Source: Clostridia bacterium
GTDB lineage: Bacteria; Bacillota; Clostridia; UBA1381; UBA9506
DNA length: 37,861 bases
Direction: 5' to 3'
Assembly (NCBI GenBank): GCA_017546245.1
Contig: JAFYXI010000031.1
Location: forward strand, 1 to 37,861
The number at the start of each line of letters is the position of its first letter. The first letter of the stretch is position 1. The notes under the pieces were generated by a model, which saw only the letters and a program-made list of their open reading frames with translations, had not been told where the DNA came from and searched no databases. A program made the translations under genes and the position numbers. Positions 9,354 through 12,973 of this stretch are shown in pieces.

Positions 9354-10079
9354 ATGTGGAACGGCTTTAAAACAGAACGCATAAGATTTGCAGAAAGAGA
9401 TGCAATAATTGTGTATCCTAAGGGCAAACCAAACGGTAAAATTTTGCTTAAAACCGAGTATTTGGATGCCTTTCCTGCATTCGATATGGCAATGCTTGAA
9501 CGCGGATATTATTTAATCCATATCGTTCAGCGCACTCGTTGGGCATCTTTAGAAGAAATATCAATTATGGCAGATTTTGCGCATTTTTGCATGGAAAAGC
9601 TTGGTGCTGACAATAAGCTTATTGTTGAAGGTATGAGTTGCGGCGGTTTGCAGGCGGCAAAGCTTGCAGAGCTTTATCCTGAGCTTGTGGGTGTGCTTTA
9701 TTTAGATGCACCTGTACTTAATATTTTGAGCATGGTCGGTCTGGGTGAATGCAGATGCGAGGCAATTGATTCGTTCTGGAGAGAAATTGTGGCAACCTAT
9801 GGCGTCAGCCGCTCTACAATAATAAATTTCAGAGAAAGCCCAATTGACAATATGCAGCCATTAATTGATAACAACATACCGATTATTATGCTTTACGGAA
9901 ATGCAGACAATGTTGTTATTTATGAAGAAAACGGTAAGGTTTTAGAGAATTTTTATCGCGAAAACGGCGGTATTATGCAGGTAATTTGCAAATCTATGTG
10001 CGGACACCATCCGCACGGTCTGGATGACCCGATGATTATTGTGGATTTTGTAGAGGCAAATTTTCCTGAAAAACAATAA
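9354..10079 (+). CDS. Alpha/beta hydrolase
   Basis: 241-residue alpha/beta-hydrolase-fold protein. The nucleophile elbow is VEGMSCGGLQ (G-M-S-C-G, Ser95). Asp185 in YGNADNVV and one of the histidines in CGHHPHG (218-221) fit the rest of the triad. No signal peptide or membrane span is seen, so it is probably cytoplasmic. It follows the GT2 gene by 15 bases with GGAGGGG as ribosome-binding site, so it is most likely cotranscribed. The substrate is unknown; a deacylase or esterase role in the same glycosylation process is possible but unproven. Confidence 0.8.
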   Translation: MWNGFKTERIRFAERDAIIVYPKGKPNGKILLKTEYLDAFPAFDMAMLERGYYLIHIVQRTRWASLEEISIMADFAHFCMEKLGADNKLIVEGMSCGGLQAAKLAELYPELVGVLYLDAPVLNILSMVGLGECRCEAIDSFWREIVATYGVSRSTIINFRESPIDNMQPLIDNNIPIIMLYGNADNVVIYEENGKVLENFYRENGGIMQVICKSMCGHHPHGLDDPMIIVDFVEANFPEKQ

Positions 10080-10105
10080 AAACATAAAAAATGCCTGATG
10101 CTTAG

Positions 10106-10131
10106 GTAGAGTGTCCTTAAGGACACTCTAC
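10106..10131. terminator. 26-base perfect palindrome after the hydrolase gene
   Basis: A perfect inverted repeat (13 bases per arm, TTAA at the centre) is followed by AGTTTTATT. It may end the upstream operon, though the T-run is weak. It may instead be the left edge of the hairpin array that starts ten bases later. Confidence 0.5.
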
Positions 10132-10139
10132 AGTTTTAT

Positions 10140-10303
10140 TCGCCTTTTGGCGAGTTATATTGCTTCGCAGTGATATTTGCTTTGCAAGTGGTATTGTGCT
10201 TCACACAGTTTATGGTGAATAAAATACCACTAAATCTAAAGGATTTAATAACACTTTTGATTTATCAAAAATATCACTCTGTACGAAAGTACAGAATATC
10301 ACT
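10140..10303 (+). repeat. Array of 9-base repeats alternating with mini-hairpins
   Basis: Three left units (AGTTATATT 10153-10161, AGTGATATT 10169-10177, AGTGGTATT 10187-10195) are followed by four right units in inverse orientation (AATACCACT 10223-10231, AATAACACT 10247-10255, AATATCACT 10270-10278 and 10295-10303). Nearly every spacer is itself a hairpin: TCGCC/GGCGA (10140-10153), GC-TTC-GC, TGC-TTT-GCA, GTG-CTT-CAC, AAATC/GATTT (10232-10246), TTTGAT/ATCAAA (10256-10269) and CTGTAC-GAAA-GTACAG (10279-10294). Left and right units can pair in nested order (the innermost pair is 9/9), giving one long branched structure. It ends 47 bases before the four-helix-bundle gene. Confidence 0.85.
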
Positions 10304-10350
10304 TGAAAAACCAACAATATAGAAGTATAATTATCGCAGAGGTGATTATA

Positions 10351-10701
10351 ATGGCAGAGAGCGTTTTAAGAGATAAAGCAAAGCAATTTGCAAAAGATAT
10401 TGTTTTCTTATGTAGAGAGATTAAATCAAGTCACAAAGAAGCGGTATTAGTAAATCAACTACTTCGTTCTGCTACTTCAATAGGTGCAAACCTTCACGAA
10501 GCACAATATGCTCAAAGTAAAAATGATTTTATATCAAAGCTTGAAATAGCACAAAAAGAGTGCTACGAAACAGAGTATTGGCTAGAATTATTTTTTGAAA
10601 CAGAATGTATCGAGGAAGAGAAATATAAGAAGATACAAAATGAGTGTGGTGCTATTCGCAGAATGTTGATATCATCACTTAAAACAGTTAAATCTAAATA
10701 A
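10351..10701 (+). CDS. Four-helix-bundle protein (23S rRNA IVS / bAvd-like family)
   Basis: 116-residue protein of the family found inside 23S rRNA intervening sequences (S23/IVP, TIGR02436-type), structurally like the Avd accessory protein of diversity-generating retroelements. Family signs are the helical pattern with LLRSATSIGANLHEAQYAQSKNDFI split over helices two and three, then KECYETEYWLELF, and a lysine-rich end. The frame is open from 10303 (TTG), but AGAGGTG at 10338-10344 places the start at ATG 10351. Related proteins form basic RNA- or DNA-binding pentamers. No reverse transcriptase, variable repeat or rRNA lies nearby, so this is a free-standing copy, tied in position to the hairpin array upstream. 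Confidence 0.88.
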   Translation: MAESVLRDKAKQFAKDIVFLCREIKSSHKEAVLVNQLLRSATSIGANLHEAQYAQSKNDFISKLEIAQKECYETEYWLELFFETECIEEEKYKKIQNECGAIRRMLISSLKTVKSK

Positions 10702-10705
10702 TAGT

Positions 10706-10739
10706 AAGCCTGAAACGAGAGATGTCGTTCCAGGCTTTT
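10706..10739 (+). terminator. Terminator after the four-helix-bundle gene
   Basis: Stem AAGCCTG (10706-10712) with CAGGCTT (10731-10737), one mismatch, then AACG/CGTT (10714-10717 with 10726-10729), followed by TTTTC. It begins five bases after the stop codon. Confidence 0.8.
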
Positions 10740-10836
10740 CTCATTAAGGTCTTAGGATATCCTAAATATTTGGAAGATGGTATACATCCTCCCTGCTTGT
10801 TACAGTACCGGACAATTTTCTAAAATAAAAATTTTT

Positions 10837-11064
10837 TTAATCTCTAAAATCAAATAATTCTTTTGGTTTTATATCTAATACTTCACAAATTTTAAATATT
10901 ACATCAAAAGAAACTCCAACATTGCCTAATTCTATAGCACTTATATGGCTTCTGTCTATATCGACTAACTCTGCGAGTTGTAGCTGAGTTAGTTTTTTTC
11001 TTTTTCTATAGTATACCACATTTAATCCAAACTTTTCATAAAGGTATTTATATTCTTGCTTCAT
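10837..11064 (-). CDS. XRE-family helix-turn-helix regulator
   Basis: 75-residue protein that is almost all one Cro/CI-type HTH domain: LNVVYYRKRKKLTQLQLAEL then VDIDRSHISAIELGN (turn and recognition helix), FDVIFKICEVLDIKPKELF. No extra sensing domain. ATG start at 11064 with AGAGG upstream. It is divergent from a lipoprotein gene across a 122-base gap with promoters in both directions, so it may control itself and that gene (inference). Base composition here is visibly more AT-rich than in neighbouring operons, suggesting separate acquisition. Confidence 0.85.
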   Translation of the reverse strand: MKQEYKYLYEKFGLNVVYYRKRKKLTQLQLAELVDIDRSHISAIELGNVGVSFDVIFKICEVLDIKPKELFDFRD

Positions 11065-11082
11065 ATTTTTACCTCTACATAT

Positions 11083-11111
11083 ATTATAGGATAATATTTA
11101 AGAGAGTTAAA
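11083..11111 (-). promoter_or_regulatory. Promoter for the XRE regulator
   Basis: On the minus strand TTTAAC (11111-11106), 17 bases, TATAAT (11088-11083), about 20 bases before the start codon. The -35 is weak and the -10 is perfect. Confidence 0.55.
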
Positions 11112-11135
11112 CCTTGTAAAAACATCATTACGCTA

Positions 11136-11164
11136 TTGATACAAGTCATAAAATGTGTTATACT
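11136..11164 (+). promoter_or_regulatory. Promoter for the lipoprotein gene
   Basis: TTGATA (11136-11141), 17 bases, TATACT (11159-11164). It starts 25 bases from the -35 of the divergent XRE promoter, so one bound regulator could affect both. Confidence 0.65.
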
Positions 11165-11186
11165 AATAACAAAGGATGGTGTTTAT

Positions 11187-11864
11187 ATGAAAAAATATGT
11201 TTTATTAATGTTGATAATTGTTTTTTGTTTTTCTTTTTGTGGATGTAACAATGAGAATAATATTAGCGATTTTGAAGTTAATGAAAATCTTCCTTATGTA
11301 GAAGGTGGTTTAAGCGAGAAAGTATATAAAGAAATGCTTAAGGAACAAGAGACTATTAAAAATTACGAGTATAGACTTTCAACTACAGTAGGAGTTGCAA
11401 ATATTGGCAATGGACAAATGCTTGAATATTCTTATGGTTCGGATAATGTTTTTGTTTCAGCCGATATTGCCGCATTTGAATACAAATACATGAAAGAAAC
11501 GACATCTATTAATAGAGAAAGTATAATAAATACATATCAAGGCACATATATGCCTATACACGGAAATGTTACAGATGTAACTTCTGCAGTTATTTATACA
11601 GAGGTACAATATACGCCTTCAGATAGTTCTATTCCTAAGTATTATACTATTCCAATTACTATTGTATCAGAACAACAAAATTTACTTTATGATATCAATG
11701 TGGGAGATAATGTTTTGCTATATGGAAAAATTGATTTACTATATGAGGATGTTTGGGATTCATCTCATAGATGTTACGATGGTATTATTAGAGAAATTAA
11801 TGATAAAAAATATGAGGTTCCTATATTAAACTCGGTTAATGAAGGAATATATAAAATTTATTAA
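11187..11864 (+). CDS. Putative lipoprotein of unknown function
   Basis: 225 residues. Signal peptide MKKYVLLMLIIVFCFSFCGC with lipidation Cys probably at residue 20, so the protein would be anchored outside the membrane. The mature part has no family I recognise; it is rich in beta-type sequence, with a stretch near the end (YDINVGDNVLLYGKIDLLYE) that resembles an OB-like barrel strand pattern as in tRNA_anti-like lipoproteins, a weak match. The frame is open from 11136, but that TTG is the -35 element; AAAGGATGG at 11171-11179 supports ATG 11187. AT-rich codon use differs from flanking operons and resembles the XRE gene it faces. Confidence 0.75.
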   Translation: MKKYVLLMLIIVFCFSFCGCNNENNISDFEVNENLPYVEGGLSEKVYKEMLKEQETIKNYEYRLSTTVGVANIGNGQMLEYSYGSDNVFVSADIAAFEYKYMKETTSINRESIINTYQGTYMPIHGNVTDVTSAVIYTEVQYTPSDSSIPKYYTIPITIVSEQQNLLYDINVGDNVLLYGKIDLLYEDVWDSSHRCYDGIIREINDKKYEVPILNSVNEGIYKIY

Positions 11865-11882
11865 ATGTTAAACATAATGATT

Positions 11883-11913
11883 AAAGGCTCTCGCAATTTG
11901 GCGAGAGCCTTTT
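11883..11913 (+). terminator. Terminator after the lipoprotein gene
   Basis: A 12-bp perfect stem (11883-11894 with 11901-11912), rich in GC, with a six-base loop and TTTT at the end. The AAA at the other side lets it also serve the convergent gene at 11951. Confidence 0.88.
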
Positions 11914-11950
11914 AAACTGTACTTACGAGTTCGCGCCATAAGCATTTATT

Positions 11951-12973
11951 TTATTCCCAGTATGGCAATTTTATACCCTTGCCGGTTTTTTGCGCGTTTT
12001 TATAGCAACGTGTTGTAACTGCAATGTCAGATATTCCTGCGCCAACGGCGTTAAAATAGATAATTTCGTCATCGTTTTCGCGTGCCGGCTTGTCTCCGCT
12101 TAAGATTTCACCAAGCTCTGCGTGGATATCCTCGTCTTTTACAAGACCTTCCTTCCACATAAGTGCAACTGTGCTTATCATACGGTGCTTAATGCTGTCC
12201 CAATAGTCAACTACTAACTTGTCGGCTTTTTTTACGCAGTCATAATCTACCTCGAAATCTGCCATATTCATAACAAGTGCACCTTTTTTAAGCCATTCGC
12301 CTTTGATAAACGGCTCAGATGCCAGGGTCACGCAGTCAATAATATCACTTTCGCGTGTTGCTTTTTCAATATCGCTTGTTGCAATTGCTTTAATGTTAGG
12401 ATATTTTTTCATGGTGCTTTCGCAAAAACGCTCTGCGTTTTCCATTTTAATATCATAAACATATAAAGTTTTTATAGACGGACGGGCAATAAGTGCCGCC
12501 TCTAACTGTGTGGGTGCCTGTGCGCCTGCACCGCAAATTGTCATAACAGAAGCATCACTTTTAGCCAAAAGCCTTACAGCAACACCGCCGGATGCGCCTG
12601 TGCGCATTGTGCTTACTGCAGTTCCGTCTGCAATACATACAGGAAGCTTTGTGTCGGGGTCATTTAAAATAATGGTAACACTTGCGCGCGGCAGACCTTT
12701 TTTAAAGTTCATAGGGCCACTGCCTATCCACTTGATTCCTGCCATATCGTACTCGCCACCTATGTATCCGGGCATTGCGTTTATACGACCCATTACGTTT
12801 TCGTCTTCAACAGTCTTACCCCAACGCATTACGCATTTTCCCGGTGCGATTATATCGCCCTGATTTCTTAAAACATAAACTCTTTCTACGTCGTTAATAA
12901 CCGCTTCCATATCGGTTACACCAAGCTCTTCCATAGCTTTGTTGTTTAAAAATAAAATTTCTGCTGTGCTCAT
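11951..12973 (-). CDS. Ornithine cyclodeaminase / mu-crystallin family protein
   Basis: 340-residue NAD(P)-binding enzyme of the OCD/mu-crystallin family. It shows the substrate-domain signature PGYIGGEYDMAGIKWIG, then ADGTAVSTMRTGASGGVAVRLL, and the Rossmann glycine motif TICGAGAQAPTQLEA. Members include ornithine cyclodeaminase, alanine dehydrogenase, ketimine reductases and a group annotated as tyramine oxidase subunit B, which this sequence resembles in length and ends; that name is not evidence of activity. ATG start at 12973 follows AAAGGAGAAT. It is divergent from a LysR gene, which is the usual pattern for a LysR target. Confidence 0.85.
   Translation of the reverse strand: MSTAEILFLNNKAMEELGVTDMEAVINDVERVYVLRNQGDIIAPGKCVMRWGKTVEDENVMGRINAMPGYIGGEYDMAGIKWIGSGPMNFKKGLPRASVTIILNDPDTKLPVCIADGTAVSTMRTGASGGVAVRLLAKSDASVMTICGAGAQAPTQLEAALIARPSIKTLYVYDIKMENAERFCESTMKKYPNIKAIATSDIEKATRESDIIDCVTLASEPFIKGEWLKKGALVMNMADFEVDYDCVKKADKLVVDYWDSIKHRMISTVALMWKEGLVKDEDIHAELGEILSGDKPARENDDEIIYFNAVGAGISDIAVTTRCYKNAQKTGKGIKLPYWE

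Follow-up and report, generated by a model that had tools for sequence, protein, structure and literature searches.

Intervening sequences (IVSs) in the 23S rRNA genes of Leptospira and Coxiella encode an open reading frame (ORF) of the S23 (23S_rRNA_IVP) family and replace the tetraloops of rRNA helices; how they spread and what their conserved four-helix-bundle (4HB) ORF does have been open questions since the early 1990s, with a transposition remnant and a mobile element among the untested ideas (PMC4990558). Insertions in rRNA genes of the candidate phyla radiation, some with an S23/IVP ORF, are found chiefly at stem-loop tops or bases (PMC11270868), and the protein family, PF05635, is linked to diversity-generating retroelements (DGRs) through Avd (PMC10053308). 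Here, we analyse a 37,861-nucleotide stretch from a Clostridia bacterium (contig JAFYXI010000031.1 of assembly GCA_017546245.1; hereafter, the window), in which a first-pass annotation had described an array of 9-mers and small hairpins joined to a gene of this family, and had proposed that the two form one unit, possibly a mobile or retroelement-like module or an RNA bound by the protein. Our comparisons indicate that array and gene are the constant parts of a larger unit, probably a mobile DNA element that inserts into the loops of intrinsic-terminator hairpins between genes and is directed by the 4HB protein and the array as folded DNA. The 23S rRNA IVS is the closest known system.

Results

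The element interrupts an intrinsic terminator

Comparison of empty and filled sites, a check proposed in the first-pass annotation, revealed an uninterrupted perfect terminator, AAAAACTGCCTGATGCTTTAAGCATCAGGCAGTTTTT, with a fold of -25.6 kcal/mol, in a genome of the same genus (G002). The joined flanks of the window element match one contig of this genome continuously at 86%, and the right arm in the window has lost a few bases relative to the empty site. The element is flanked by convergent protein genes whose ends are at 10079 (+) and 11951 (-), and does not lie in an rRNA gene. From left to right, it comprises a left-end hairpin, the array, a promoter, the 4HB gene, cargo, a terminator, and a right end that mirrors the apex of the left-end hairpin. 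The extent first assigned to the unit, 10106-10740, contains the array and the gene; however, 10106-10131 is the left-end hairpin and not array, the element runs on to ~11937, and both ends, the cargo, and the terminator target had been missed. The boundary features are:

10105-11937 (+): whole putative mobile element, 1833 bp (empty site and other copies; ends approximate to a few bases)
10086-10104 (+): host terminator, left arm, AAAAAATGCCTGATGCTTA (empty site in G002)
10106-10131 (+): left-end hairpin, GTAGAGTGTCCTTAAGGACACTCTAC, -19.1 kcal/mol (position kept and stem variable in relatives)
11883-11913 (+): terminator hairpin preceding the right end (sequence; other copies are laid out alike)
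11916-11930 (+): right end, ACTGTACTTACGAGT, diverged from the ACTGTCCTTWAGAGTAC type (comparison with other copies)
11938-11952 (+): host terminator, right arm, with a short deletion (comparison with the empty site)

The left-end hairpin together with the adjoining array unit, AGTTTTATT, resembles an intrinsic terminator in form and, as regards function, probably stands in for the terminator that the interrupted gene has lost.

Other copies have the same organisation. In pairwise comparisons, nearly all pairs lose homology at about -247 on the left; on the right, it breaks off at shared ends, which fall shortly after the 4HB gene or after shared cargo. At the right end, a terminator precedes CATCCTTATGAGAA or ACTGTCCTTWAGAGTAC, a mirror of the apex of the left hairpin (CTTCTCATAAGGAAG, GTGTTCTTAAGGACAC). 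Intrinsic-terminator arms flank both ends, for example AAAAAAAGAGTGACC / GGTCACTCTTTTTT at locus L034, AAGAGGAGTACA / TGTACTCCTCTT at L027, and GGAAACTCGCCATAT / ATATGGCGAGTTTC at L016. An arm-complementarity score of at least 20 was obtained for 19 of 30 loci with a candidate right end, versus 3.6% of swapped pairs, the low scorers being mostly loci without a credible right end. The right-end requirement matters for this result: an arm search of the whole downstream region without the right-end motif gave poor separation (own median 18 versus control 17), and the requirement fixed this.

Loop sequence is seemingly repeated at both junctions of L016 (CATATG) and L027 (ACAAA), which by itself is no proof of target duplication. 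The L016 locus is too repetitive for an empty-site search; the terminator region struck by its element belongs to a different intergenic repeat, of which related genomes contain dozens of copies (many contigs of G011; G014:C6). Empty sites of L033 and L046, sought through their flanks, yielded matches in their own genomes only, plus one weak 72% piece.

The array is linked to the 4HB gene

The seven 9-mers of the first-pass annotation, three in one direction and then four in the other, are present in the window (forward at 10153, 10169, and 10187; reverse at 10223, 10247, 10270, and 10295). An eighth unit, AGTTTTATT at 10132-10140, is kept in relatives, so that the canonical array is 4+4. With one mismatch, the unit is matched 27 times in the window versus 13 +/- 3.8 times in shuffles, and folding of the array gives z = -6.6 as RNA and z = -5.4 as DNA relative to shuffles. 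Comparison with Rfam covariance models gave no match at the gathering threshold to a group II intron or other RNA family. The array features are:

10132-10140 (+): forward unit F1, AGTTTTATT (sequence and relatives)
10153-10161 (+): forward unit F2, AGTTATATT (sequence and relatives)
10169-10177 (+): forward unit F3, AGTGATATT (sequence and relatives)
10187-10195 (+): forward unit F4, AGTGGTATT (covaries with R1)
10133-10143 (+): helix P0, 5′ arm (pairs with 10215-10225; in 52 arrays, 99.3% of cells are paired and 2 pairs show double changes)
10215-10225 (+): helix P0, 3′ arm (consensus of 52 arrays)
10223-10231 (-): reverse unit R1, AATACCACT (sequence and relatives)
10232-10246 (+): spacer hairpin, aaatctaaaggattt (consensus helix 5; double changes in 5/7 pairs)
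10247-10255 (-): reverse unit R2, AATAACACT (sequence and relatives)
10256-10269 (+): spacer hairpin, tttgatttatcaaa (consensus helix 6; double changes in 4/6 pairs)
10270-10278 (-): reverse unit R3, AATATCACT (sequence and relatives)
10279-10294 (+): spacer hairpin, ctgtacgaaagtacag, with a GAAA loop (consensus helix 7; double changes in 4/6 pairs)
10295-10303 (-): reverse unit R4, AATATCACT (sequence and relatives)

Relatives were sought in 84,980 species genomes, and 80 were retrieved at 68-94% identity, all from metagenome-assembled genomes (MAGs) of Clostridia/Oscillospiraceae, mostly from herbivore gut. A search for the array upstream of S23/IVP-family genes had been suggested from the window alone, and at least part of the array lies within 300 nt upstream of the 4HB start in 80/80 relatives. 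The usual layout is four forward units, AGTNNTATT, followed by four reverse units, AATANNACT, with hairpins between units, and in most relatives the last unit lies 45-54 nt 5′ of the 4HB start. The gene is located between the forward and reverse halves in L044 and L083, and directly after the forward half in L081. Among genomes of the same bacterial family, 10 of 23 4HB genes pass an exact inverted-array test, versus 0 of 316 control windows. The array is thus always linked to the 4HB gene in this gene clade, as the proposal of a single unit had anticipated. Several 4HB frames are broken by early stops or truncated beside intact arrays (L051, L065, L084, and L108), as expected for decaying copies.

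The protein encoded at the window locus belongs, as first described, to the 23S-IVS/Avd-like family, with 97.1 bits for PF05635 (curated cut-off 33.8) and 109.2 for TIGR02436 (cut-off 24). A monomer model (pLDDT 92.8) is a four-helix bundle that matches the S23 structures 2rld (Z 20.3) and 2gsc (Z 17.6) and Avd (VIA Z 14.8-14.9, rmsd 1.8, about 107 residues), the Avd matches being 4dwl and chains of the DGR RNA-reverse transcriptase (RT) complex 8ub7/8ub8. The protein is highly conserved among relatives, and its solved relatives form pentamers. Translation probably starts at ATG 10351, preceded by the ribosome-binding site gaggtg, and not at TTG 10303; counted to this ATG, the last unit ends 47 nt 5′ of the gene, the gap originally reported. 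A sigma-70-type promoter starts on the final base of the last array unit, and 63 of 71 relatives carry it within 3 mismatches, 36 of them perfectly (shuffled, 15). Since the promoter begins after the array, the array is not part of the leader of the 4HB gene, and a role as its 5′ untranslated region was rejected. The gene's own terminator is present as described. The gene features are:

10303-10331 (+): promoter TTGAAA-17-TATAAT of the 4HB gene (same place in relatives)
10351-10701 (+): 4HB gene, 23S_rRNA_IVP / S23 family, 116 aa (PF05635 8.5e-28, TIGR02436 1.1e-31)
10706-10740 (+): terminator of the 4HB gene (sequence; same feature in contig C30 and L008-L018)
10748-10815 (+): two-hairpin stretch 3′ of the gene, TTAGGATATCCTAA ... 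GGAAGATGGTATACATCCTCC ... CAGTACCGG (common to L009, L010, L011, L014, L016, L018, and L043)

The two-hairpin stretch is the window analogue of a conserved motif, GGGTTTGGGCTTAGCCC...GCATTTGTACATACAAATGCGATGCTGGTTCT, that lies between the 4HB stop and differing cargo in L021, L022, L024, L029, L033, L039, L040, L047, L049, and L059, and that may be a cargo junction or leader.

The array hairpins are under selection for form

Covariation was analysed in 52 aligned arrays, with shuffled and slid alignments as controls. In the consensus of seven helices, 98.1% of cells are paired, with 270 double-change cells versus 78 in shuffled alignments. Double changes occur in 23 of 40 pairs (0/500 shuffles), and the covariation score is 0.374, whereas shuffles give 0.111 and slid controls do not exceed 0.067. 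Helix P0 links the first forward unit to the array centre; the other consensus helices are spacer hairpins. The array hairpins are under selection for form, and the covariance analysis called for by the first-pass annotation, which had suspected such selection on the spacers, strongly supports them. F4 and R1 also covary (27/53 versus 14.4 expected, p < 0.001). A fully nested arrangement, in which forward and reverse units form stacked four-way junctions, was rejected as the main structure: only F4:R1 clearly covaries among the unit pairs, and the supported helices are P0 and the local hairpins.

The spacers also have a strand polarity. Counting distinct spacers, stems of at least 3 bp are present in 115 of 123 in the reverse half and 68 of 84 in the forward half (45 and 21 when shuffled). 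When loops are read on the strand where the unit is AATANNACT, GNA accounts for 41 of 86 triloops and TNC for none, GNNA accounts for 44 of 90 tetraloops with the GNRA complement never seen, and the loop-closing pair is C-G in 152 of 176 cases. C(GNA)G is an extra-stable DNA mini-hairpin motif. As independent evidence, non-Watson-Crick pairs, scored on the + strand, comprise 19 GT and 2 AC in the reverse half and 2 GT and 6 AC in the forward half (Fisher p = 0.0014). Together, the loop types and the polarity of the G-T wobbles indicate folding of the two halves on opposite strands, with each half running 5′ to 3′ outward from the centre. This pattern favours folded DNA over a single transcript as the functional form of the array, because one transcript cannot satisfy both halves and folded DNA can.

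Copies, cargo, and array-only derivatives

The empty site places two further genes inside the window element, which are therefore cargo:

10837-11064 (-): XRE-type helix-turn-helix protein (PF01381 5.6e-13; inside the element by the empty site)
11187-11864 (+): predicted lipoprotein, no family (no Pfam match; inside the element by the empty site)

Cargo elsewhere includes a methyltransferase, AraC regulators, a GNAT protein, an ion channel, a peptidase S51, a SHOCT protein, and, in L012 and L018, genes resembling REP-associated tyrosine transposases (RAYT-like; Y1_Tnp), which could be either passengers or drivers. The source genome contains a second copy of the element on C30. Identity between the L016 and L018 elements is 97.9% over 701 bp, against 74% for an orthologous flanking gene of the same two genomes. 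Nine contigs start no more than 3 kb upstream of a 4HB gene, and five of these no more than 250 bp upstream, which is what a repeat would be expected to produce. Five of 20 family genomes contain the array pattern, several sites being without an intact adjacent 4HB gene; in L108 the gene is cut short beside the array, and L106 consists of left end, array, and right end, with no 4HB gene, inside a terminator (AAAAAGCACAGAC / GTCTGTGCTTTTTT). Sharp ends, differing flanks and cargo, and the empty site argue that the unit is mobile, as had been surmised from the window.

Related arrangements with other units

The same inverted layout with other units (AGCTAAA, ATGAAAT, ATGAATT, GCGATAT, and TCGATAT; at least 5) is found upstream of other 4HB genes in the same bacterial family, with 0/316 in control windows. 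The loci concerned are L112, L114, L115, L117, L118, L121, L122, L123, L125, and L003. Both array halves change together across unit types, as expected whether the halves pair or one protein binds both.

L107 and L110 lie behind tRNA genes and, with L109, L151, and some other-unit arrays, directly follow tRNA genes or tRNA-like ends. A branch in which an A/T-flanked terminator hairpin forms the left end, right after a tRNA CCA end, comprises L107, L109, L110, L113, L114, L122, L151, L074-L080, and L085; some right ends in this branch are followed by a sequence resembling a tRNA 3′ end (…CATTCGGTTCTTCCAG), suggesting a second, tRNA-linked site. In L111, L116, L152 (Treponema plasmid), and L153 (Nostoc plasmid), 4HB genes are beside or flanked by short tandem repeats, which in L111, L116, and L152 are inverted on the two sides of the gene (e.g. 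AATTGCAAATTGCAAATGGC, GAAAGTGGAAAG, TTACGAATTACGAATTA); these are possibly a simpler form of the array arrangement in other lineages.

Discussion

Proposed mechanism and alternatives

We propose that the 4HB protein would bind the array in the form of folded DNA, with the hairpins of its two inverted halves displayed on opposite strands, and that the resulting complex would bring the element ends together. The complex would then direct the ends to another hairpin, a terminator exposed as a single strand or cruciform, where a cut at the loop would let the element in. The element has no recognisable gene for a cutting or joining enzyme; this enzyme would probably be a host hairpin or recombination nuclease, or else the 4HB protein itself, through an unrecognised activity. 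No other gene comes near the array and the 4HB gene in constancy, and neither RT nor Y1 transposase was found in several carriers; we infer that the 4HB protein and the array are the mobility determinants, acting on DNA hairpins.

Several points weigh against this proposal. Movement is deduced from the comparison of copies and sites, and neither the 4HB protein nor the array need be its cause; the 4HB gene could be a passenger. Incomplete genomes may hide a transposase, and one may also have disappeared once the element was in place. The clean empty site is a single case, and tRNA-adjacent relatives seem to use another site. All carriers are MAGs, in which misbinning and assembly error at repeats are possible, and misbinning of the smaller contig is conceivable in the comparison of L016 and L018. 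The main argument for DNA and not RNA, based on loop and wobble statistics, is indirect.

The imperfect hairpins at both ends would also suit a non-autonomous element moved in trans by a Y1 transposase (IS200/IS605 or REP type), with the 4HB gene and array as accessory or cargo, and Y1-like proteins occur in 12 of 20 family genomes and, in L012 and L018, among the cargo. We consider this unlikely: a Y1 search of array carriers G001, G009, and G018 (86-95% complete) gave no match, and it is the array and 4HB gene that stay constant. The targets of Y1 elements are short sequences that do not vary, whereas the targets here are loops of varied sequence. Rather improbable, too, is movement at the RNA level, in which an RNA copy would enter RNA hairpin loops and be reverse transcribed by an RT supplied in trans, with the 4HB protein acting as Avd does in DGRs. 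The 4HB fold matches Avd, including the chains of 8ub7/8ub8, terminators and rRNA helices are both RNA hairpins, and PF05635 is frequent in DGR neighbourhoods (PMC10053308); however, no RT match was found in array carriers G001, G009, G018, and G019 (86-95% complete), and Pfam detected no RT among window genes near the array. Moreover, no single transcript carries the conserved form, because the halves fold on opposite strands, the left end is terminator-like, and the promoter starts after the array. The earlier suggestion of a retroelement-like module thus has no positive evidence, and that of a single RNA bound by the protein is disfavoured.

Finally, the spacing between the array and the conserved promoter that follows it is constant, as it would be for an operator or attenuator of the 4HB gene at a locus that is not mobile. 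As a full account, such a cis-regulatory region is very improbable and already contradicted by the empty site and the array-only L106; in addition, flanks and cargo vary, the ends are sharp, the array precedes the promoter and so forms no leader, and the gene lies between the array halves in L044 and L083. An operator role alongside mobility may nevertheless exist. 

Beyond the proposed terminator-loop insertion, it is conceivable, though on balance doubtful, that these elements represent a transposase-free class in which the 4HB protein and the inverted DNA mini-hairpin array are the mobility machinery, strong hairpin loops are the target, and rRNA IVSs are the rRNA-inserted branch; if true, one mechanism would account for both terminator elements and rRNA IVSs. 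Through these elements, the S23/4HB family gains a clear mobile context: their ends are defined, sites occur both empty and filled, they carry cargo, and their target is structural. They also illustrate how genes can enter terminators with termination apparently restored, and a short sequence placed in a laboratory strain would suffice to test what the 4HB protein does.

Comparison with known systems

A search of the open-access literature, with most subscription papers outside its reach, found no description of these elements. Group IIC introns target intrinsic terminators. The present elements share this target; group IIC introns, however, are RT-encoding ribozymes that insert behind the stem of the terminator, and the present element has no Rfam match. 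IS1397, ISKpn1, IS621, and other insertion sequences in repetitive extragenic palindromic (REP) sequences likewise have a palindromic, hairpin-forming intergenic target, sometimes entered at the symmetry axis (PMC1525189), but encode a transposase and recognise one repeat family, whereas the present elements have no recognised recombinase and enter unrelated terminators. REPINs and bacterial interspersed mosaic elements (BIMEs), which are associated with RAYT transposases, resemble the present elements in having intergenic hairpin repeats in opposite orientations and an array-only derivative (PMC3116915, PMC2817692); the units here, in contrast, are 9-mers between variable hairpins, in a fixed 4+4 order, and are tied to a 4HB gene and not to a Y1 transposase. 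The Avd protein of DGRs (4DWL, 8UB7) has the same fold as the 4HB protein, with about 15% identity; unlike DGRs, the element has no RT, and RT is missing from several carrier genomes.

The likeness to 23S rRNA IVSs extends to the same protein family, replacement of the loop of a host helix, complementary ends that lengthen the host hairpin, and suspected mobility (PMC4990558). Like the longer IVSs, the window element encodes the S23/IVP ORF; it replaces the loop of a host helix, which is a terminator and not an rRNA helix. IVSs are located in rRNA genes and are cut from rRNA by RNase III without religation, whereas the present elements occupy intergenic terminators and have, besides cargo that varies, a 4+4 hairpin array, a promoter of their own, and a left end resembling a terminator. 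The repeated landing in terminator loops suggests something of the nature of the 23S rRNA gene insertions. Although their location sets them apart from IVSs, the present elements behave as an intergenic counterpart.
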